Shown: piece by piece, positions 25,454 through 37,341 of the stretch | Position numbering within the stretch: the stretch's first letter is position 1 | How the letters are laid out: each line of letters opens with the position of its first letter | Assembly (NCBI GenBank): GCA_018659375.1 | Contig: JABJMO010000040.1 | Coordinates: 1-48,305 of the forward strand | DNA: 48,305 nt | DNA from: Methanobacteriota archaeon | GTDB lineage: Archaea > Thermoplasmatota > Poseidoniia > Poseidoniales > Poseidoniaceae | Reading direction: 5' to 3' | Made by a program: the position numbers and the translations under genes | Notes under the pieces: generated by a model | Databases searched by the model: none | What the model was told of the DNA's origin: nothing | What the model saw: the letters and a program-made list of their open reading frames with translations, nothing else

Positions 25454-26275
25454 ATGCTTCATGAACCTCAGCGCGTTAGGAGTGTCGTTCCCATGCAACC
25501 AGTTGGTATGTACTCTCGTGACCGATGTGTAACAGGGGTCCACGGGTTAGATGAGATTTTACGTGGTGGAATTCCCTATGGGTCTACCGTTCTTGCCGCC
25601 GGAACATGCGGTTCGGGAAAAACAACGTTGGGGATGGAATTCCTTGTTCGTGGCGCCAATGCTGGAGAAGCATGTGCCCATTTCACCGCAACAGAGCCAT
25701 CAGTAAAATTATTGGAAAATATACGACAATTCGGCTTTTTCGACATGAAAATGGTTGATACAGGCCTAATCAATGTATTTGACATGGACGTACTGTATTC
25801 ATGGCTTGGATTGGAAAAAGCATCATTTGACTTGGATGACGTTCACTCGCTGATCAAGTCGATCGTGGACATTGTCAATACTATTGGAGTGACAAGGCTG
25901 GTAATCGACTCGGTTACTACACTGTGTTACAAAATCAAATCTGAACAACTAATTCGAGATTTCTTGTTTACTCTTGGTAAGAAACTCGCAACACTTGGTT
26001 GCACAACAATACTTATCGCGGAAATCACTTCTGCCACAGAAAATGCTCACTGGTCATCATTTGGCGTTGAGGAAGCGATCTGTGATGGAATTATTGTTCT
26101 TGGAGACGTCGAGCGCATGGGTCACCTGCTAAGATTCCTACAGGTAGTTAAAATGCGAGGTACATCTCACAGTAGGGCAAAACATGCAATTGAACTAACA
26201 CCTTTGGGTGTTATGCTAACTCCGATGCTCAAGTGGGGCGCAATAAGTGACAATTTGAATAGATGGGGTTCGTGA
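25454..26275 (+). CDS. KaiC-like RecA-fold ATPase (active Walker A)
   Basis: 273 residues, a single KaiC domain. TGVHGLDEILRGGIPYGSTV is the N-terminal family signature, followed by AGTCGSGKTTLGMEF (Walker A) and a Walker B region TRLVIDSVTTL. Archaeal single-domain KaiC relatives act as signalling ATPases or, like ArlH, as nucleotide-dependent switches in archaellum and pilus assembly. No clock function is implied. The gene leads three paralogous RecA-fold genes and follows the pilin-like gene, so a role in a surface structure is possible. Start ATG 25454; ATG 25493 is an alternative. Confidence 0.88.
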   Translation: MLHEPQRVRSVVPMQPVGMYSRDRCVTGVHGLDEILRGGIPYGSTVLAAGTCGSGKTTLGMEFLVRGANAGEACAHFTATEPSVKLLENIRQFGFFDMKMVDTGLINVFDMDVLYSWLGLEKASFDLDDVHSLIKSIVDIVNTIGVTRLVIDSVTTLCYKIKSEQLIRDFLFTLGKKLATLGCTTILIAEITSATENAHWSSFGVEEAICDGIIVLGDVERMGHLLRFLQVVKMRGTSHSRAKHAIELTPLGVMLTPMLKWGAISDNLNRWGS

Positions 26276-26276
26276 G

Positions 26277-26861
26277 ATGTTCGAATTAGATCAAGGAATC
26301 GCCGATCAGTTAACTGAAGTATCGCTGAACAGTTCAGTTCAAGTTAGGTGCGGCAACTCAAATTCTTTCATGGTCACTGCTAGTACTCTAATTCCTCTGT
26401 TACAAATGTTTGAGATGAAAGGCGTTTACATCTCGGCAAGCCGAGGTGCAGCCGAAGTAATCCAAGGCTTTGAGTCAGTTGGTATTGACGTTTCTCAAAT
26501 TCAATTCATTGACTTGGTCTCTTCTGGAATCTTGGGTGGCACTAACATCCCTTACAACAATGTCCATTTTGTTGATAGCCCGATAATGCTTGAATCAATC
26601 CTGCTTAGGACTCTATATATTCTCAAGACCAATCAGTCCGAACGAAATTTTGTTTTTATTGATAGCGTTAATGCCCTTGCTATCTACAACGAAGATAGAA
26701 TGCTAGCGGAGTACCTCCACACCTTCATTAACACTTTTAGGCAACAAGATGTTCTTTCAGTAATATTGAATGTACCCGATCAGACACCTCCGCTGGTATT
26801 GTCAAATCTAGATCTATATTGCACAGATTTAGTAGATAGAGGCCAAGTAGTAATTCATTGA
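26277..26861 (+). CDS. Degenerate RecA/KaiC-fold protein lacking Walker A
   Basis: 194 residues. The N-terminal half has no P-loop (VRCGNSNSFMV stands where one would be), but the core strands remain, with NFVFIDSVNAL matching the Walker B strand of KaiC relatives and LSVILNVPDQ the next strand. It begins one base after the upstream KaiC-like gene stops (TGAGATG) and is followed after ten bases by a third paralogue. Most likely a non-catalytic partner in a mixed assembly. Resemblance to the DUF835/DUF7504 type families is possible but not certain. Confidence 0.7.
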   Translation: MFELDQGIADQLTEVSLNSSVQVRCGNSNSFMVTASTLIPLLQMFEMKGVYISASRGAAEVIQGFESVGIDVSQIQFIDLVSSGILGGTNIPYNNVHFVDSPIMLESILLRTLYILKTNQSERNFVFIDSVNALAIYNEDRMLAEYLHTFINTFRQQDVLSVILNVPDQTPPLVLSNLDLYCTDLVDRGQVVIH

Positions 26862-26871
26862 GTGTGGAAAT

Positions 26872-27675
26872 ATGGCTAAAGACGTACAATTTACCTCCGA
26901 AGATGAGGAATTCTTTAGCAGCGTTGGTTCCTTTGGTGTGCCAAAATTCGATAACGAAATGCGTGGTGGCGTACCCAGGGGTTTTACCATGATTGCCTTT
27001 ACTGATATTGGCTCTGGAAGTGAGTTATTCGCCAAGCAATTTGTTTCACCAGCAGAGGAAGCAGAGAATACTATATACATTTCAACCAATGAAGGTCAAG
27101 CGGAAATAGTCCGTGTTTTCAAAAAATACGATTGGCCATTGGATATCAATGTTAGAACGATAGGAGAAGAATATAATTCTAATGTTTTAGAAAAAGAGCT
27201 CTTAGCAAGCAGATACCGTCTCGAAGGTTTTAGGTTAGAAGATGTTCAGAGACTTGCACAAACAAGATTTGTTGAGGAAAGTAATCAAGATTATCTCACT
27301 GAAGTTACCAATGAAGTGATGGCGCTGGGGCCTTACTTTAGAGCAGTTCTAGACAGTTTGGACTTTTTCTTGCAAAGAGATGACCCAGCAAGAGTCATCG
27401 CCATGGTTAGAATGCTTCAAGCACACGCCCAATTGTATCGTGGCTTGTTGTTTATCTCTGTATCCACTGACGGACTTTCACCAAAAGTAAAGCAAGAATT
27501 GTCCTCAATAGCAGACATGGTATTATCATTTCAAGTAAGGACTGTTGGTACTGATTTTGAGACCTCAATGATTGTATCAAAGTTTAGAAACGCACCAGAA
27601 AACTTGAAAATTTTAGTTTTCAGAGTGACTCCAGAAGAAGGAATTACCCCAGAAACTGTCGAGCGTATCGCTTGA
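26872..27675 (+). CDS. KaiC-like protein with degraded Walker A
   Basis: 267 residues. GVPKFDNEMRGGVPRGFTMI matches the KaiC start, but the P-loop reads FTDIGSGSELF, with the conserved Lys-Thr replaced, so ATP hydrolysis is doubtful. A longer helical section lies in the middle (about 100-165), then MVRMLQAHAQLYRGLLFISVS, the expected core strand. The last of three RecA-fold genes in a row; only the first keeps an intact nucleotide site. Possibly a scaffold or sensor subunit. A methyltransferase gene follows after 44 bases. Confidence 0.75.
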   Translation: MAKDVQFTSEDEEFFSSVGSFGVPKFDNEMRGGVPRGFTMIAFTDIGSGSELFAKQFVSPAEEAENTIYISTNEGQAEIVRVFKKYDWPLDINVRTIGEEYNSNVLEKELLASRYRLEGFRLEDVQRLAQTRFVEESNQDYLTEVTNEVMALGPYFRAVLDSLDFFLQRDDPARVIAMVRMLQAHAQLYRGLLFISVSTDGLSPKVKQELSSIADMVLSFQVRTVGTDFETSMIVSKFRNAPENLKILVFRVTPEEGITPETVERIA

Positions 27676-28493: not shown

Positions 28494-28564
28494 GACCACT
28501 AACTAAATCATTACACTCATAAACCCCCTCTAATTGGCCTTTTCTACAGGTGATGAAGTTGAGT

Positions 28565-28876
28565 ATGGCTGAGGTTCTACGCAAAATCAAGCAAACCGAG
28601 AGAGAGGCTGCAAGACAACTGTCTTCAGCGAAGGACGACGCTAACAAAATAGTGTCTGATGCGAGAAAAAAATCTACTGAAATAGTCAATAAATCTGCTG
28701 ACGATTCAGTAACAAACACCCAATCTACTCTTGATGAAGCAAGAAGTAAAGCTTCAAAAGCGGCTGAAAAGGTCATACAAGACGGTTCAACAGCAGTTGA
28801 CTCTATTACGTCAGCAGCCGGAAAGAATCAATCCAAAGCAGTAGATCATTTGTTGAAATCAATGTCTTCGTTGTAG
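28565..28876 (+). CDS. A-type ATP synthase subunit H (peripheral stalk)
   Basis: About 103 residues, almost entirely a charged coiled coil (AEVLRKIKQTEREAARQL, then repeated Lys/Glu/Asp/Ala heptads). Its position directly before subunit I and its length match the AhaH/AtpH stalk subunit, which pairs with subunit E to hold the catalytic head. Start chosen at ATG 28565, where homologues begin; AGGTGAT lies upstream, and in-frame starts at 28550, 28553 and 28559 are possible. The C-terminal part is less typical, so the name rests partly on context. Confidence 0.8.
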   Translation: MAEVLRKIKQTEREAARQLSSAKDDANKIVSDARKKSTEIVNKSADDSVTNTQSTLDEARSKASKAAEKVIQDGSTAVDSITSAAGKNQSKAVDHLLKSMSSL

Positions 28877-28885
28877 GTTTTTTAA

Positions 28886-31237
28886 ATGTTTGAAACTGCT
28901 GAGATGTCCCGACTTACCGTTGCGGCACCAGTTGGTAAACTCGAACACGTTCTTCGAACATGTGCAGGTCTTGGATGCGTCCATATTGAGGAATATGGCA
29001 ACTTTGAGGATGGAATTGGAGTCGGTAAATCAATCAATACCGATAATTCAGGACGTATTAGCCAGTTGCTTACCAAGGCAAGAGCGCTTCAATCAGAATT
29101 AAACGCTAACAATACAGGCGGGGCCAAATCTGCCATTGAAGCAAATAAATTGACCGAATCAATGCCAGAAAAAGTAGAATCAGCACTCTCAATGGTCGAT
29201 CAAATTCGAGATGCACAATCTGAAATTTCCAATCTAGATGAGAGAATAAGAGCCTTGAGTAGAGTCGAACCACTTGGGATACCACTTGAGTTAATGAGCG
29301 GGTTTGAAGAATTGGAGATTTATATTGCTGAGTCGGCGAAGTCTTCCAAAGCACATGCTGTGTTCGCTGACATGAGTTCTGATATAGAATTGCAAACATC
29401 GTCGGGAATCATAGCCGTCGCATGCAAAAAATCAGATGGCGCAGCTGTGCAAATCGGTCTAGGTGAGTTGGGTGCGAAACCAATCCAAATACCCGCCGGA
29501 GAAGGTTCTCCAAGCGAAATGATTGCCAGTGCGGAAGCAAAAATCTCGGAATTAGAATCAACCATAACAACTTGCGAGGAAAATTTGACTGCATGGAGTA
29601 ATTCCAACGGTAGTGATTTAGTCATCTTGCTCGAACATCTGGAAAGAGAAGAATCAATCTACACTGCTCCAACACTACTTGCGGTTAGTAACCAAGCCTT
29701 TGTCCTAGACGGGTGGGTTCCCACTAGCGACAAAAACACGGTGATGAAGGCCCTTGAGGGGCAAGCATCCCACGTTTCTATAGAAAAATATGAAGCACCT
29801 CACCACGGCCATGGGCATGGTAGTGATGACGCACATGAATCCAAAGATGTACCCAAAGAACTGGTTATGCTTTCAGATTATCTTGCCGAAAAGAATATTT
29901 CGGTATTCCAGTTTTTCAGGAGCATGGATTTAGATGACTCAGGTGAACTGGAATTCAGAGAAATTGAATCTGCTATGAAAAAGGCCGACATCCCAGATAT
30001 GCCACCTCTAAATATGGCAAAATTCCTTGCTGCAATCGATCTTAATAGAGACGGGAAGATTAACCTACCAGAATTAGATTTAGCAATTGGCACAATCAGA
30101 GCTGGAAAACACCATTTAGACGAACATCATGATGATGCACAGCCTCCGATTAAATTTGAAAACGGAGATATATCTGAGCCATTTGAATTATTAGTGGATT
30201 TAGTCGGCAGGCCAAAATATGGCACATTTGACCCAACTCTACTGATGACGATAACATTCCCACTATTCTATGGAATGATATTGGGTGATTGGGGATATGG
30301 ACTAGTGTTGTGCGCTTTAGCAGCTTATCTCGGCAGTAAGCCCTTCGCAGCAGACCCACTTGCTAAAAACGGATTGACTATCCTTAGATGGATGGGGATT
30401 TGGTGTATTATTTGGGGATTGATTTTTGCTGAAGGGTTTGGCTTCGTATGGGATGACACAGGTCAACTGGGCTCCTCCTCACCATTTGCCGGAATATATG
30501 CTTGGACTTACAGCAACATCCACGTTCCTGGTGCTTTAGCAGATTTACTTGGCATGGGCGGTCTTCATGTCCCGTTCCACAGAGCAACAGTAGGTGGTGG
30601 CCTGCAAGAATACGTGGTACTATCTGTTTATGTTGGAGTCGCACACATATTCCTCGGATTAGTAATTGGCCTATTCACTGTTTACAAAGCACATGGAGCA
30701 GCGGCTGCATACTTTGAGAAGGGTTCGTGGATTCTAATTCTAACTGGAGGTACTATGCAAGCTAGGAATATGGTTATGGGTTACAACGATTTGTTCGAAA
30801 TTCAAGTGTGGTCATTCTTGATAATTATTGGACTGATTAGTCTGATTATCGGTCTGGCTATATTTGAGAAGTTCGGCTGGGTCGGAGGCATCATCATGGG
30901 ACCAATTGAAACATTTGGTTTGCTAGCCAACACTCTTTCTTACCTTAGAATAATGGGAGTCGGTGTGGCAGGAGTCAAAATCGCTGAAGTATCAATCACC
31001 ATGGGTTGGGAGAAAATCGGACCTGCCATCGACTCTGGTGACATTTTAACTATAGTGTTGGGATTAGTTTTGTTCATACTAATCCAACTCTTTGCCATTG
31101 CCTTGGGTATATTATCACCTACAATTCACGCCGTTCGTCTACACTTTGTAGAATGGATGGGCAAATTTTACGACGGAAGTGGGAAGGCATTCTCCCCACT
31201 TGGCGGTCGCACTCTTCACGTGGAGAGTGAATCATAG
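28886..31237 (+). CDS. A-type ATP synthase subunit I (a) with inserted EF-hand pair
   Basis: 783 residues, longer than the usual 650-700. The N-terminal half is the cytoplasmic arm with coiled coils; the C-terminal half (from about 436) holds the membrane helices, with FDPTLLMTITFPLFYGMILGDWGYGL and SYLRIMGVGVAGVKIAE, whose Arg688 is the essential ion-channel arginine. Between them, residues about 330-410 form two EF-hands: loop one DLDDSGELEFRE (348-359), loop two DLNRDGKINLPE (385-396), both with correct acidic ligands and Glu at position 12. Histidine-rich patches flank the pair (306-312 and 409-415). I know of no such insertion in the family. Encoded between subunits H and K. Confidence 0.93.
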   Translation: MFETAEMSRLTVAAPVGKLEHVLRTCAGLGCVHIEEYGNFEDGIGVGKSINTDNSGRISQLLTKARALQSELNANNTGGAKSAIEANKLTESMPEKVESALSMVDQIRDAQSEISNLDERIRALSRVEPLGIPLELMSGFEELEIYIAESAKSSKAHAVFADMSSDIELQTSSGIIAVACKKSDGAAVQIGLGELGAKPIQIPAGEGSPSEMIASAEAKISELESTITTCEENLTAWSNSNGSDLVILLEHLEREESIYTAPTLLAVSNQAFVLDGWVPTSDKNTVMKALEGQASHVSIEKYEAPHHGHGHGSDDAHESKDVPKELVMLSDYLAEKNISVFQFFRSMDLDDSGELEFREIESAMKKADIPDMPPLNMAKFLAAIDLNRDGKINLPELDLAIGTIRAGKHHLDEHHDDAQPPIKFENGDISEPFELLVDLVGRPKYGTFDPTLLMTITFPLFYGMILGDWGYGLVLCALAAYLGSKPFAADPLAKNGLTILRWMGIWCIIWGLIFAEGFGFVWDDTGQLGSSSPFAGIYAWTYSNIHVPGALADLLGMGGLHVPFHRATVGGGLQEYVVLSVYVGVAHIFLGLVIGLFTVYKAHGAAAAYFEKGSWILILTGGTMQARNMVMGYNDLFEIQVWSFLIIIGLISLIIGLAIFEKFGWVGGIIMGPIETFGLLANTLSYLRIMGVGVAGVKIAEVSITMGWEKIGPAIDSGDILTIVLGLVLFILIQLFAIALGILSPTIHAVRLHFVEWMGKFYDGSGKAFSPLGGRTLHVESES

Positions 31238-31266: not shown

Positions 31267-31584
31267 ATGAATAAAAATACCCTGAAAATGAGCCTAAGAA
31301 CACTGATCGTATTGTTGGTAGTAACCCTGGTTGCCCAAGGTGTTGCAGCACAAGATGCAGCAGCTGAAGATGATAACGACATAAACGGAGATATCGGCAT
31401 GATAGGTGTCGGTCTAGCACTTGGTCTTGCGGCCATCGGTGCCGGTTACTCGCAAGCAGCAATCGGTAGTGCCGCTGTTGGCATGCTAGCAGAAGACGGA
31501 AGCAAATTCGGTGTAGCACTTATCTTTACTGCTCTACCGGAATCTATCGTTATCTTGGGCGCATTGCCATTGTTCCTACAGTGA
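31267..31584 (+). CDS. A-type ATP synthase subunit K (c, rotor proteolipid) with signal peptide
   Basis: 105 residues. The first 28 residues look like a cleavable signal peptide (LIVLLVVTLVAQGVAA, then QDAAAEDD), followed by an acidic stretch and the two c-subunit helices. Helix one has GLAAIGAGYSQAAIG with Gln63; helix two has ALPESIVILG with the ion-binding Glu92 and adjacent Ser93. The Gln plus Glu-Ser combination resembles the sodium-binding signature of Na+-coupled c-subunits, though the usual tyrosine is missing. AGGT site upstream. Forms the rotor ring next to subunit I. Confidence 0.93.
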   Translation: MNKNTLKMSLRTLIVLLVVTLVAQGVAAQDAAAEDDNDINGDIGMIGVGLALGLAAIGAGYSQAAIGSAAVGMLAEDGSKFGVALIFTALPESIVILGALPLFLQ

Positions 31585-31636
31585 ACATTTAACTTTGACA
31601 GTTTAGATTACTGTTGGAGAAAATGGAGGAATAAGT

Positions 31637-32200
31637 ATGACGCTCGAAACATTGGCTAAAGACATTGCAGCATCTGCTAAAGCAGATGTTGATGCAATAC
31701 TGAAAGAGGCCAAAGCTGAAGCAAAGCAGATTATCAATGACGCAGAGACCAAAGCCTCTGGGATAACAGATGAAGCTAATTCACGTGCAGAAAGAGAAGC
31801 ATCACAGATTTCTAGAGAAGTTGTTGCTAGTGCTAGACAAGCAAATCAAAAAGCAATATTAATTGCTAAAAGAGAAGCAATGGATAGTACCTACGCAGAA
31901 ATCAAAGAAAAACTTGCAGACCCTGGTTTTAAAGGACGAGCAAGTATGCTGAAATCATTGATGTCAAAAGCAAATAAATTAGCATCTGCAGACTTTGTAA
32001 TCAGGCCTGTTGAAGTAGATAAAAAAGCACTTAGTGATTTGAAAGGTAAAAGAAAGGTTGGTGAATCAGTTGAAGGACTTGGTGGTTTCATTCTCGAAGC
32101 CGCAGATAGTTCTGTGTCATATGACATGAGGTTTGATACACTGCTAGACTCAACCTGGGCAAATTCTTTGTCTGAAGTTAACAAAATATTGTTTGGATGA
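31637..32200 (+). CDS. A-type ATP synthase subunit E (peripheral stalk)
   Basis: 187 residues. The N-terminal 100 residues are a coiled coil rich in Ala, Lys and Glu (ETLAKDIAASAKADVDAILK), typical of AtpE, with a globular C-terminal part (GGFILEAADSSVSYDMRFDTLL) that docks on the catalytic head. GGAGGAATAAGT precedes the ATG. Gene order after K and before C is the standard archaeal one. Confidence 0.9.
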   Translation: MTLETLAKDIAASAKADVDAILKEAKAEAKQIINDAETKASGITDEANSRAEREASQISREVVASARQANQKAILIAKREAMDSTYAEIKEKLADPGFKGRASMLKSLMSKANKLASADFVIRPVEVDKKALSDLKGKRKVGESVEGLGGFILEAADSSVSYDMRFDTLLDSTWANSLSEVNKILFG

Positions 32201-32210
32201 GGTGAAAAAG

Positions 32211-33245
32211 TTGGCTGGTAATACTGCATATGTTGCTTCGAGAGCTAAATCTCGAAGAAAGAAACTTGCAGATTTGTCGCGTATGCGTCAATTAATCAAC
32301 CAATCAACAGACCAACTTACATCATCAGTAAGCAATATGGGTTATTCAGATGAGGTGAATCTATATGCCGGTAAATTGACTGGCGCAGATTTAGTCGAAG
32401 CTGCCTTGACACATAATTTAGAATCTGAACTAAATAATATACTATCCATGTGCAATGGAAAGATTCGTGACGTAGTAGAAATTTACTCATCAAGATTCGA
32501 ATACCAAAACGCAAAGGTAGTACTAAGGTCAGTAGTCAACAAAGTCTCATTGGATAAGGTTTCAAATTCAATCTTACCTGATTTGAATGAGATCAATACC
32601 CCTTGGTTGAAAATCATTGAAAATTCTGATGACTTACGTTCTGCGGTATTACAAATGCGCAGAAAATCGTTTGGCTCTGATCTTAAGTCATTATCAGAAG
32701 ATTCTAGATTATCAGATTACGAGGATGCGTTAGACCGTCATTACTACAAATCTGCGATTATGTCAATGAAGACAAATAACCCACCTACTAGATACTTGAG
32801 AGATTACCTAGCAATGGAAATTGATCACAGGAATATGCTGAATGTACTTGAAGCAGACTCAATCGGTATAACGCCGGAAGAAACAGCTAGTATGCTAATC
32901 CCTGGTGGTAAAATACTGCCAACTAGGTCATTTTCAACAATAGCAGCTGGAGGTCGCTCAGCTCTAATGGATGTGCTAAGGGCCTCCTCAAAATTTGATA
33001 TCACGCACTTTGAAACACTTCTTGAAGAAGTTTCTAAATCAAGAAGTTTAGATTCAGTAGTTACCTGGTTTAAAGAAAGGGAATATAAGTTCATGAAAAA
33101 GATGAGTTATCTCCACCCCATTTCTGCATTACCAATCGTTTACTATGTTGCTATGAAAGTGCAAGAAGTAGCAGATTTGAGAATTATTGTAAGAGGAAGA
33201 TTTGCCGGTCTGCCACCGGAAGTGCTCGAGGCGCACATACTGTGA
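32211..33245 (+). CDS. A-type ATP synthase subunit C (central stalk, V-type d)
   Basis: About 344 residues, largely helical, linking the rotor ring to the central shaft. Family blocks seen include TAYVASRAKSRRKKL at the start, AALTHNLESELNNIL, and a C-terminal MKVQEVADLRIIVRGRFAGLPPE. I place the start at TTG 32211 because a perfect GAGGTGA lies five bases before it; a TTG at 32193 would overlap subunit E by eight bases. Third stalk gene of the operon. Confidence 0.9.
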   Translation: MAGNTAYVASRAKSRRKKLADLSRMRQLINQSTDQLTSSVSNMGYSDEVNLYAGKLTGADLVEAALTHNLESELNNILSMCNGKIRDVVEIYSSRFEYQNAKVVLRSVVNKVSLDKVSNSILPDLNEINTPWLKIIENSDDLRSAVLQMRRKSFGSDLKSLSEDSRLSDYEDALDRHYYKSAIMSMKTNNPPTRYLRDYLAMEIDHRNMLNVLEADSIGITPEETASMLIPGGKILPTRSFSTIAAGGRSALMDVLRASSKFDITHFETLLEEVSKSRSLDSVVTWFKEREYKFMKKMSYLHPISALPIVYYVAMKVQEVADLRIIVRGRFAGLPPEVLEAHIL

Positions 33246-33254
33246 GGTGTAATT

Positions 33255-33554
33255 ATGGAATTTTCAGTAGTAGGTTCACAAGAATTCACTTTGGGGTTCC
33301 AACTTGCAGGAATTTCAAACACTTTCAACCCAGAGACAGAAGATGAGATGATATCTCAGCTAAAATCTCTATTAAATTCAAAAGATGTAGGGATTATCGT
33401 GGTCGACTCCGCGATAATACCAACCCTGCCTGAGAGATTGAGAAATCAACTCTCTACATCAGTAACCCCTACTGTTCTAGGAATTGGAACAGAAGAGGAT
33501 ACTACTTTGCGAGACACAATTCGTAAAGCAATAGGAGTCGATTTATGGAAATAA
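33255..33554 (+). CDS. A-type ATP synthase subunit F (central stalk)
   Basis: 99 residues. [18 protein letters not shown] and [20 protein letters not shown] match the Rossmann-like fold of subunit F, which sits on the central shaft and can regulate activity. GAGGTG upstream of the ATG. Length and position (between C and A) are normal. Confidence 0.92.
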
Positions 33555-33576
33555 ATTCCAACAAGGAGGAACAAAT

Positions 33577-35316
33577 ATGAGTAATGAAGGAGTAATATAC
33601 CGAATATCCGGTCCTGTGGTGACCGCTACTGGAATGAATGCAGCTATGTACGACGTGGTCAGAGTTGGAGATGAAGGTCTGATGGGTGAAGTTATCGAAC
33701 TTCACGGCGATAAGGCTGTAATCCAAGTTTACGAAGATACGTCTGGAATACGTCCTGGCGAGCCAGTTTTGAATACCGAGGAAACACTCTCAGTATCACT
33801 GGGCCCCGGTCTTTTGACCCAAATTTATGATGGGATTCAAAGGCCTTTGGCGACACTTGAGGAAGTAATGGGCGTATTCATCACCAGAGGTGTTGATGCT
33901 GATGCTTTTGATTTGGAAAAGAAATGGACTTTTGAAGCAGTTGTTGCCAAAGGTGACGACGTTGCTAGTGGTCAAGTAATTGGGCACGTACAAGAGACTG
34001 AAACAATTGTTCACAAAATCATGGTGCCTCCGGGTAAAAGTGGTAAAGTAAAGTCAATTAAATCAGGTGACTTCAATGTCACTGAAACTGTCTGTACTCT
34101 TGATGATGGCTCAGACCTTCAAATGATGCAAAAGTGGCCGGTTAGGTCTCCTAGACCATTCCGCCAAAAGTATGCACCAGACACTCCTCTAGTTACAGGT
34201 ATGAGAATTCTAGATTTCTTATTCCCCCTAGCAAAAGGTGGAGCTGCCGGTATTCCTGGTCCATTTGGCTCTGGAAAGACAGTTACTCAACAATCGCTTG
34301 CTAAGTATTCAGACGCTCAACTTGTTGTCTATATTGGATGTGGTGAAAGAGGAAACGAGATGACTGAAGTTCTTGATGAATTTCCGCATCTAATTGATCC
34401 AAACACCGGTAAGCCATTGATGAACAGAACCGTTATGATTGCCAACACTTCAAACATGCCTGTAGCTGCCCGTGAAGCGTCAGTTTACACAGGAATTACC
34501 ATTGCTGAGTATTTCAGAGATATGGGTTACGATGTTGCATTGATGGCTGACTCAACATCTCGTTGGGCTGAAGCAATGCGTGAAATTTCATCCCGTCTAG
34601 AAGAGATGCCTGGTGAAGAAGGATATCCAGCATATCTTTCATCACGTATTGCAGAGTTCTATGAACGTGCAGGACGTGTTGAGACGCTCAATGGCGACGA
34701 TGGTTCAGTTACCGTAATTGGTGCGGTTTCTCCACCCGGTGGAGATATTTCAGAACCAGTATCTCAAGGTACCCTAAGAATTGTTAAGGTTTTCTGGGGT
34801 CTTGATGCTGGTTTGGCAAGACAACGTCACTTCCCGGCTATCAACTGGCTGAATTCATATTCACTTTACCCACAAAGTCTAGACCAATGGTTTAGAGATA
34901 ATATTTCACAAGACTTCCCCGAGATTAGAACTCAGATCAGTGGTCTACTACAAATTGAATCAGAATTGCAAGAAATTGTTCAATTAGTCGGTTCTGACGC
35001 ACTACCAGTAGATCAGCAACTTACTCTTGAAGTCGCTAGAATGATCAGAGAATTTTTCTTACAGCAAAACGGATTCCACGAAGTCGATGCATATTGTGAT
35101 ATAAATTTGCAATATAAGATGGCTAAAGCAATTCTTTCATTCCAAGAAGCAGCTAAGTCAGCAATGGCATCAGGTGCACAACTGAATGACGTAGTTAATA
35201 TTCCAGCTAGAACCGATTTGATGAGAGGTCGGTTTGAAAAAGGCTACATTAATGAAATCGATAGCATGGTTACTGCAATGACTGACGAAATTGCTAATAC
35301 CGTGGAGGGTAACTAG
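33577..35316 (+). CDS. A-type ATP synthase catalytic subunit A
   Basis: 579 residues, the nucleotide-hydrolysing or -synthesising subunit. P-loop [12 protein letters not shown] is at about 228-239; the non-homologous region (about 115-190) distinguishes A from [30 protein letters not shown] and [19 protein letters not shown] are strong family blocks. No intein. AAGGAGGAACA precedes the ATG. Forms the alternating hexamer with subunit B. Confidence 0.98.
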
Positions 35317-35327
35317 GAGGAATTATC

Positions 35328-36707
35328 ATGAGTGGAAAAGAATATAGAACAATTACCGATGTTAAAGGGCCACTGGTCTTTTTGAACAAAACCGAGCCAG
35401 TGGCATTCGGAGAAATTGTAACTATCAGGCTTGCTGATGGTTCGACGAAGAACGGACAAGTACTCGACACTTCTGACGATTTAGTTATCGTTCAAGTGTT
35501 TGAAGGAACCGCTAAAATCAACCGAGAATCTGGTGTCACATTCATGGGCGACGTTTTCAAACTACCAGTCAGTACTGAACTGATTGGTAGAATTCTTGAC
35601 GGTGCAGGTAGGCCAAGAGATGGCGGACCGTCTATTGTCGCAGATGAAAATGCAGATATTATTGGTGCGGCGATTAATCCATACAGCCGACAAAGTCCTC
35701 ACGACTTTATCCAAACCGGTATTTCTGCTATTGATTGTTGTACAACTCTGGTAAGAGGACAGAAGTTGCCAATTTTCTCAGCGTCTGGTTTGCCACACAA
35801 TGACATTGCTCTGCAAATTGCTCGTCAAGCAAAGTTGAAGGGTTCAGATGAAGAATTTATTGTTGTGTTCTGTGCTATGGGAATCACCGCCGAAGAATAC
35901 AATTTCTTCAGGTCTGACTTGGAGAGAACTGGAGCGCTAGAAAATGCGGTTCTGTTCGTTAACCTTGCAGACGACCCTGCAGTCGAGCGAATTATTACGC
36001 CTAGGTTGGCACTAACTGCTGCGGAATACCTCGCATTCGAGAAAGATTATCACGTACTTGTTATCTATACTGACATGACAAATTATTGTGATGCACTAAG
36101 ACAAATTGGTGCTGCTCGAGAAGAAGTTCCTGGACGACGTGGTTACCCTGGTTACATGTACACCGATTTGGCCATGCTATACGAGCGTGCTGGAATTGTT
36201 AAGGGCAAGAAGGGATCTATTACTCAATTCCCAATTCTAACCATGCCTGGTGATGATATCACGCACCCAATTCCGGATCTTTCGGGATATATCACTGAAG
36301 GACAAATTGTTATCTCAAGGGAATTACATCAGCAAGGTATCTATCCGCCAATCAACGTTTTGCCATCTCTATCCAGATTGATGGGTTCCTGTATTGGTGA
36401 AAAGACCACTAGAGAGGATCACAAATCTGTTTCCGACCAAATGTATGCTGCGTATGCTCAAGGCCGAGAACTTAGAGGTTTAGTGGCAATTGTTGGCGAA
36501 GATGCACTTAATGAAAGAGACAAGCAATTATTAGACTTTTCAGGGGTTTTTGAAGATAAATTCCTGCGCCAAACAAGAGACGAAGACCGTTCCATTGAAG
36601 AAACACTTGATCTGTGTTGGAATCTAATGTCCTCTATTGATACCAAGTATCTAGTTAGATTAGACCAAAAGTGGATTGAAAAGTATCACCCAGAAAACAA
36701 AGAGTGA
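35328..36707 (+). CDS. A-type ATP synthase subunit B
   Basis: 459 residues, the non-catalytic partner of subunit A. Family marks are [65 protein letters not shown] and [15 protein letters not shown]. There is no P-loop lysine, as expected for archaeal B. TAGGAGGAATTATC leads to the ATG, 11 bases after subunit A. Confidence 0.97.
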
Positions 36708-36723
36708 ATCAGGAGAGATATTC

Positions 36724-37341
36724 ATGGCATTGGACATTAAACCAACCCGCAGTGAATTGATCAAACTCAAGTCTAGAATTAAGCAAACCAAAAATGGTTA
36801 CAAGCTGCTGAAAATGAAGCGAGATGGACTTTTCCATGAATTTAGGCAACTCCTATCTGAAATGATAAAAGCCAAGCGTGAGCTGACTGATTCATACAGA
36901 TTAGCAAAGCAAAGAATTGATTTGGCCAATGCGATTGATGGTGGATTAGCCGTCAGAGCAGCAGCTATCGCAAATAGTGCTCACCCCGAAGTAGAAGTCG
37001 AAAGACGCAACATCATGGGTGTAGTTGTGCCCAGTGTTAGTGGAACTAACCTGAAATCAACATTTAAAGAGCGAGGAGTAGGTTATATCGGCTCTTCTCC
37101 ATACATCGATGAAGCAAGCGAATCATTCAGTGAACTGATCGAAAAAATAGTTACTGCAAGTGAAATGGAAGCAACTCTAAAACGTCTACTTGAAGAGATA
37201 GAAGCAACCAAAAGAAGAGTAAACGCCTTAGAATTCAAAGTCATACCAGAACTCGAAGAAGCAAGAGTGTTTATTCAACTTAGACTCGAAGAGATGGAAA
37301 GAGAAGAAACTTTCAGGCTCAAACGTTTCAAGAATAAATGA
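36724..37341 (+). CDS. A-type ATP synthase subunit D (central shaft)
   Basis: 205 residues, a long antiparallel coiled coil that turns inside the A3B3 head. TRSELIKLKSRIKQTKNGYKLLKMKRDGL is the typical N-terminus, and RRVNALEFKVIPELE near the C-terminus is strongly conserved. The ATG at 36724 is preserved in homologues and has AGGAGAG nine bases upstream; an ATG at 36676 in the same frame would overlap subunit B and is unlikely. Last gene of the ATP synthase operon. Confidence 0.94.
   Translation: MALDIKPTRSELIKLKSRIKQTKNGYKLLKMKRDGLFHEFRQLLSEMIKAKRELTDSYRLAKQRIDLANAIDGGLAVRAAAIANSAHPEVEVERRNIMGVVVPSVSGTNLKSTFKERGVGYIGSSPYIDEASESFSELIEKIVTASEMEATLKRLLEEIEATKRRVNALEFKVIPELEEARVFIQLRLEEMEREETFRLKRFKNK

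Follow-up and report, generated by a model that had tools for sequence, protein, structure and literature searches.

What would a pair of EF hands do inside the stator of an archaeal ATP synthase? The question is raised by atpI (28886..31237, forward strand), a gene in the stretch of 48,305 nucleotides that was analysed as a whole and is called the window below. Its 783-amino acid product is an A/V-type ATP synthase subunit I (an a-subunit homologue) by Pfam (V_ATPase_I, 4e-31), by NCBIfam (V-type ATP synthase subunit I, 6e-109) and by fold, the top Foldseek match being the Thermus V/A-ATPase subunit I (3e-23). The gene is preceded by an atpH-like open reading frame (28550-28876, from the list of open reading frames and named by reading) and is followed on the forward strand by the remaining genes of the operon (K, E, C, F, A, B and D; 31267..37341), as read from the translations. 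With the genes named in this way, the order H, I, K, E, C, F, A, B, D is ordinary. Shortly upstream of the operon lies a row of KaiC-type ATPase genes (25454-27675), of which the first and the last match Pfam KaiC at 2e-54 and 4e-15, respectively.

The pre-TM segment and membrane half of AtpI (residues 420-783; 30143..31234, forward strand) include R688, which is found in the sequence LSYLRIMG. This residue and its neighbours are invariant in a 57-sequence alignment, and by homology R688 is likely to be the conserved channel-region Arg. The possibility that the insert-bearing protein is a non-functional paralogue was rejected because it is the only full-length subunit I encoded in the window's own genome and its membrane half is conserved.

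An EF-hand pair lies between the arm and the membrane half of subunit I

The initial annotation, made from the sequence alone, had described two canonical EF-hand loops 37 residues apart, located between the cytoplasmic arm and the membrane half of a subunit I about 100 residues longer than normal. Each of these points was confirmed. Loop 1 (DLDDSGELEFRE, residues 348-359; 29927..29962) and loop 2 (DLNRDGKINLPE, residues 385-396; 30038..30073), both on the forward strand, match the PROSITE pattern PS00018 with the expected spacing. When AtpI was shuffled 20,000 times, the pattern occurred on average 0.0022 times per protein and never twice, and a chance motif was therefore rejected. The EF-hand pair domain, which constitutes the insert (residues 323-405; 29852..30100, forward strand), was defined by Pfam EF-hand models, an AF2 model and its absence from the sister clade. 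It is placed in a His-rich cytosolic linker that leads from the peripheral arm to the first membrane helix. Insert-bearing proteins exceed their insert-free relatives, which measure about 692-699 amino acids in the same genus and mostly 672-692 amino acids in other Poseidoniaceae, by about 90-110 residues. By homology the insert would be on the cytosolic side, since it precedes TM1 and the arm is the counterpart of what is termed the "cytoplasmic N-terminal domain" in 3rrk.

The isolated insert scored above the cut-off with four Pfam models: EF-hand_1 (32.8 bits against a cut-off of 25.4), EF-hand_5 (32.5 against 25.9), EF-hand_7 (31.4 against 30) and EF-hand_6 (27 against 25). In the whole protein EF-hand_1 alone passed, and barely (25.6 against 25.4 bits), with EF-hand_7 below its cut-off (28.3 against 30). 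An NCBIfam match to the XopAW calcium-binding effector was dismissed as generic EF-hand similarity only (19 bits against a cut-off of 120). In the AF2 model, which was built on the 57-sequence alignment, residues 324-405 form a pair of helix-loop-helix units whose loops each contain a short strand (helices 324-335 and 340-345, strand 354-356 and helix 357-366 in the first hand; helix 377-384, strand 391-393 and helix 394-405 in the second), at a moderate confidence (pLDDT of about 65-77 in the insert) that makes fine detail unreliable. The paired EF hand stands between two His-rich linkers that are predicted to be disordered, one on its 5' side (residues 306-322; 29801..29851; pLDDT below 50 for residues 305-320) and one following it (residues 406-419; 30101..30142; pLDDT below 50 for residues 408-416), both on the forward strand. 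Both the Pfam search and the structure model, two of the checks that had been proposed at the outset, came out in favour of an EF-hand pair.

Ligands at loop positions 1, 3, 5, 9 and 12 and the Gly at position 6 are present in both loops of all 47 insert-bearing sequences. Positions 1, 3, 5, 6 and 12 of loop 1 are invariant and position 9 is Asp or Glu; for loop 2 the invariant positions are 1, 5, 6, 9 and 12, and position 3 is Asp or Asn. Position 2 is Leu, Ile or Met throughout, and Pro is absent there. A true EF-hand domain with two loops, the insert very likely binds Ca2+.

The insert was gained once and is under purifying selection

The window's genome is a MAG of the Poseidoniales, which its named relatives assign to Ca. 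Poseidoniaceae. All 47 AtpI sequences with the insert belong to its own genus, here called MGIIa-L1 (MGIIa). They come from many assemblies and include the closed chromosome CM001443.1, and misassembly, which the initial annotation had considered in the form of a single faulty contig, was therefore rejected. When 390 Thermoplasmatota genomes were searched with a model spanning the linker, the EF pair and TM1, end-to-end matches were obtained in MGIIa-L1 only. The rarity of this arrangement among A/V-type ATPases that had been supposed from the start thus holds for these genomes and for the solved a/I subunits aligned.

In seven other sequences from this genus the site is cleanly empty and takes the form HHHHDE-EDGHHQVNPPI. 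In a maximum likelihood tree of AtpI, calculated from columns with at least 80% occupancy so that the insert was dropped, the full-length insert-bearing sequences (42 of 42) form one clade (UFBoot 100). The seven empty-site sequences are its sister (joint clade, UFBoot 100), and insert-free sequences from Poseidonia and others fall outside the joint clade. The history of the insert is one gain with no observed loss; repeated gain or loss is not needed on the tree. The EF domain would have been copied once into the AtpI linker, in the ancestor of most of the genus. A viral origin of the module was also considered and rejected, as no relative was found among viral contigs. The His-rich tract at the insertion site also occurs in insert-free relatives and is therefore older than the EF insert.

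Across 218 sequence pairs, pN/pS was lowest in the membrane half (0.115) and the EF domain (0.127), higher in the arm (0.21) and highest in the linkers of the EF domain (0.28-0.29); these ratios are comparative only because pS is near saturation (0.6-0.8). The EF domain is under strong purifying selection.

Several individual assemblies deserve mention. One AtpI of the genus, 909 amino acids long (L052, genome G041), has not only the EF insert but also some 120 additional residues elsewhere, close to residues 492-512 of the query, and these may be a further insertion or an artefact of assembly. Genome G045 encodes two subunit I proteins, one EF-bearing (L069, C7) and one of the type of the other family (L024, C1; 735 amino acids), and the pair may reflect an additional ATPase, horizontal transfer or contamination of the bin. 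Contigs with a Poseidoniaceae-type atpI that are filed under Flavobacteriales and Rhodobiaceae MAGs (L130 and L176) probably reflect chimeric bins.

The same module is found in complex I

A search with a profile of the insert gave a match in 144 of 145 Poseidoniaceae genomes, revealing a wider pattern of module-bearing hosts, complex I among them, that was absent from the initial annotation. In Ca. Poseidonia, a genus tied to the named record Ca. Poseidonia alphae, open reading frames of 847-872 amino acids exceeded the cut-offs of both NuoL and EF-hand profiles; the host was identified as NuoL by TIGR01974 (NDH_I_L; 425.6 bits against a cut-off of 407.5) and PF00361 (4.8e-64). Within NuoL the module occupies the loop GAVIHEVHHAHHH...[EF pair]...HHEEFDAQSM.NMGGL and was present in 21 of the 21 Poseidonia genomes covering this loop (for example L183:1366-3906; L191-L211). 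A search of ten other Poseidoniaceae genera found it in NuoL of none of them, and in those of their sequences that were read (L212-L219) the His-rich loop continues without a break. All 21 distinct NuoL sequences have kept the calcium ligands, with the Gly at position 6 of loop 2 lost in one. From the usual topology of antiporter-like subunits, the loop would lie on the cytosolic side. The insertion sites in AtpI and NuoL are both His-rich loops that are present in insert-free relatives too; such loops are possibly metal-binding, or recombination hot spots.

A further host was found in genus g9 of the other family of the order, probably Thalassarchaeaceae. In eight of its genomes NuoJ is split, and its C-terminal half is fused to an EF pair (L271:1699-2724, L272:1752-2345 and L273:5986-6588). 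The open reading frame for the N-terminal half matches Oxidored_q3 (61.6 bits against a cut-off of 33.2), whereas the EF-fused C-terminal half alone scores below the cut-off (17.6-19.8 bits) and its assignment leans on gene order. The NuoL of g9 (L273:3054-5699) contains a divergent EF pair in the same loop as in Poseidonia, with a degenerate loop 1 (DIDSSRTLTVEE) and a canonical loop 2. This pair is 30-36% identical to all other modules, compared with mostly 45-66% identity between modules in different hosts, and may represent an older or separate recruitment.

EF modules on an oxidase-fold protein and on other proteins

Across the Poseidoniaceae, a polytopic protein encoded next to a gene for a YchF-like GTPase carries the EF module at its end (L002:1330-2634 and L085:2170-4149, both on the reverse strand, and homologues), and some copies have an added SAP domain. 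No Pfam match was obtained for its membrane part, and Foldseek matched the model to cbb3 CcoN (E 1.4e-9; TM-score 0.76 by target length). An alignment of 23 sequences revealed only two mostly conserved His columns in the membrane part (84 and 268), and the six heme/CuB His ligands of heme-copper oxidase subunit I are not conserved in this set. A working oxidase was rejected on these grounds, and the protein should be labelled an oxidase-fold protein and not an oxidase. Its EF domain gave very weak matches to lanmodulin (E 0.06-0.09). In a tree of EF domains the AtpI modules group with oxidase-fold copies (46 AtpI and 14 others, UFBoot 100), with some oxidase-fold copies outside the group and with an alignment of about 85 residues from which donor and direction cannot be fixed. 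In MGIIa-L1, the only other close copy of the module is the one on the oxidase-fold protein.

Further EF-hand pairs are encoded in the window's genome (L077 on C19, L074 on C41, L075 on C37, L080 on C32 and L083 on C45). By reading, these include an amino-acid-permease-like transporter with a C-terminal EF pair, an amidohydrolase-like protein with a TM helix and an EF pair, and a zinc-ribbon/EF/TM protein.

A possible calcium sensor acting in cis

The occurrence of the module in both ATP synthase and complex I suggests that calcium acts directly on the energy machinery. We see about an even chance that the AtpI insert is a Ca2+ sensor that regulates rotary coupling in cis. A rise in cytosolic free Ca2+, for instance by seawater influx or with a failing ion gradient, would fill both loops, and the filled pair would open. 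Opening of the pair would change the hinge that joins the arm of the peripheral stalk to the half that conducts ions, by which rotary coupling might be adjusted or braked. With the module on NuoL or on the C-terminal half of NuoJ in sister lineages, the same Ca2+ signal would act on respiration. Two CaCA (Ca2+/cation) exchangers are encoded in the window's genome and could keep cytosolic Ca2+ low. The initial annotation had proposed that calcium could gate or brake the enzyme; this proposal is strengthened by the invariant ligands and the strong purifying selection, and also by the two exchangers and the separate placement of the module in complex I. More tentatively, and with a probability that we put somewhat short of even, the EF module was grafted repeatedly (onto the ATP synthase stator, NuoL, NuoJ and the heme-copper-oxidase-fold protein) as a Ca2+-signalling layer on oxidative phosphorylation that tunes respiration and ATP synthesis in cis.

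A sensing role is favoured by the retention of the ligands, the flexible linkers, the recurrence on energy-converting complexes and the precedent of NDB1 from plants, a Ca2+-activated dehydrogenase of respiration in whose chain an EF-hand domain is embedded (PMC4587368). It is weakened by the seven species of MGIIa-L1 that do without the insert, by the marginal full-length EF-hand scores and moderate AF2 confidence, and by the existence of EF-hand-like domains that are purely structural, as in mEAK-7 (PMC9263379). The main rival of regulation by Ca2+ is a constitutive structural or tethering role. An EF pair that is always filled with metal, Ca2+ or Mg2+, might be a folded spacer or a pad for docking, which lends stability to the stator or to a contact with another subunit and senses no changes. 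The very even conservation with no observed loss and the insertion into permissive His-rich linkers would suit such a part, and mEAK-7 places a structural EF-hand-like domain on a V-ATPase (PMC9263379). We nevertheless regard a purely structural domain as rather unlikely: Glu12 and the other ligands are fully kept, which fits Ca2+ sites and not degenerate ones, and a shared signal would more readily explain why the module was placed repeatedly on different energy complexes.

It is less probable still that the EF pairs form a tether, in which those on the ATP synthase, on complex I and on the oxidase-fold protein attach to one another or to a shared partner, in a Ca2+-dependent manner or not, and so keep bioenergetic complexes joined or fixed at a site of the membrane. 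Association of EF pairs into four-hand units is common, and such a tether would be in keeping with the occurrence of a single module family on several membrane proteins of one lineage. However, the AtpI and NuoL inserts occur in different genera, no genome was found with both, and the oxidase-fold protein would be the only partner with a close copy in MGIIa-L1. Binding of another metal, a lanthanide or a transition metal held with the help of the His-rich flanks, for sensing or buffering, appears very improbable. The acidic residue at position 9 of loop 1, the flanks themselves and the faint lanmodulin similarity of the related oxidase-fold EF domain hint in this direction, but Pro at loop position 2, a mark of lanmodulin, is lacking in the AtpI EF hands, their loops fully fit the Ca2+ consensus, and the His tract predates the insert.

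In mitochondria Ca2+ acts mostly upstream, on dehydrogenases and carriers, and we know of no earlier account of Ca2+ control that resides within the polypeptides of a rotary ATPase stator or of complex I. Taken singly, EF hands, subunit I and NuoL are familiar; as far as we found, their combinations are not described in the open-access literature, which yielded nothing relevant on EF hands in NuoL, in subunit a of V-ATPases or in the ATP synthase of archaea, and the genomes compared here are those of Thermoplasmatota. Poseidoniales are uncultured, are among the most abundant archaea of the surface ocean and live in approximately 10 mM Ca2+. Na+ has been suggested as the coupling ion of their ATP synthase (PMC6336850). 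At about 85 residues the insert is compact, insert-free relatives provide natural controls and several host complexes can be compared; the old question of Ca2+ as a prokaryotic second messenger acting on core bioenergetics is thereby made directly testable.

Comparison with known systems

A 2022 study of Poseidoniales reported subgroup-specific families with calcium-binding domains in MGIIa and MGIIb, and the passages of its main text on this subject do not name ATP synthase or complex I as hosts (PMC9258230). The subunits I of Thermus thermophilus (6qum, 3rrk) and Enterococcus hirae (8wci) resemble AtpI in the fold of the arm and the membrane half, and Thermus and Enterococcus share with it the operon position and the conserved channel-region residues, but an EF insert between the arm and TM1, as in AtpI, is found in none of the solved a/I homologues aligned. 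The insert itself is closest to EF pairs of the calmodulin/CDPK type (EF-hand_7), and its best PDB match is calcium-dependent protein kinase 3 (9vhu, 1e-8). Two canonical 12-residue loops at a distance of 37 residues, Glu12 and, in the model, short beta pairing are common to both; in contrast to that type, the AtpI pair is a single one, lies inside a rotary ATPase subunit and has no separate target-binding protein. The V-ATPase-binding TLDc protein mEAK-7 likewise brings an EF-hand-like fold to a rotary V-type ATPase, but as a separate protein on the B and E subunits, with loops that lack key ligands and are unresponsive to calcium (PMC9263379). Plant external NAD(P)H dehydrogenases of the NDB type, like AtpI, have an EF-hand domain within a respiratory enzyme; they are single-polypeptide type II dehydrogenases that do not pump ions, and activation by Ca2+, which we infer for AtpI, has been measured for them (PMC4587368).
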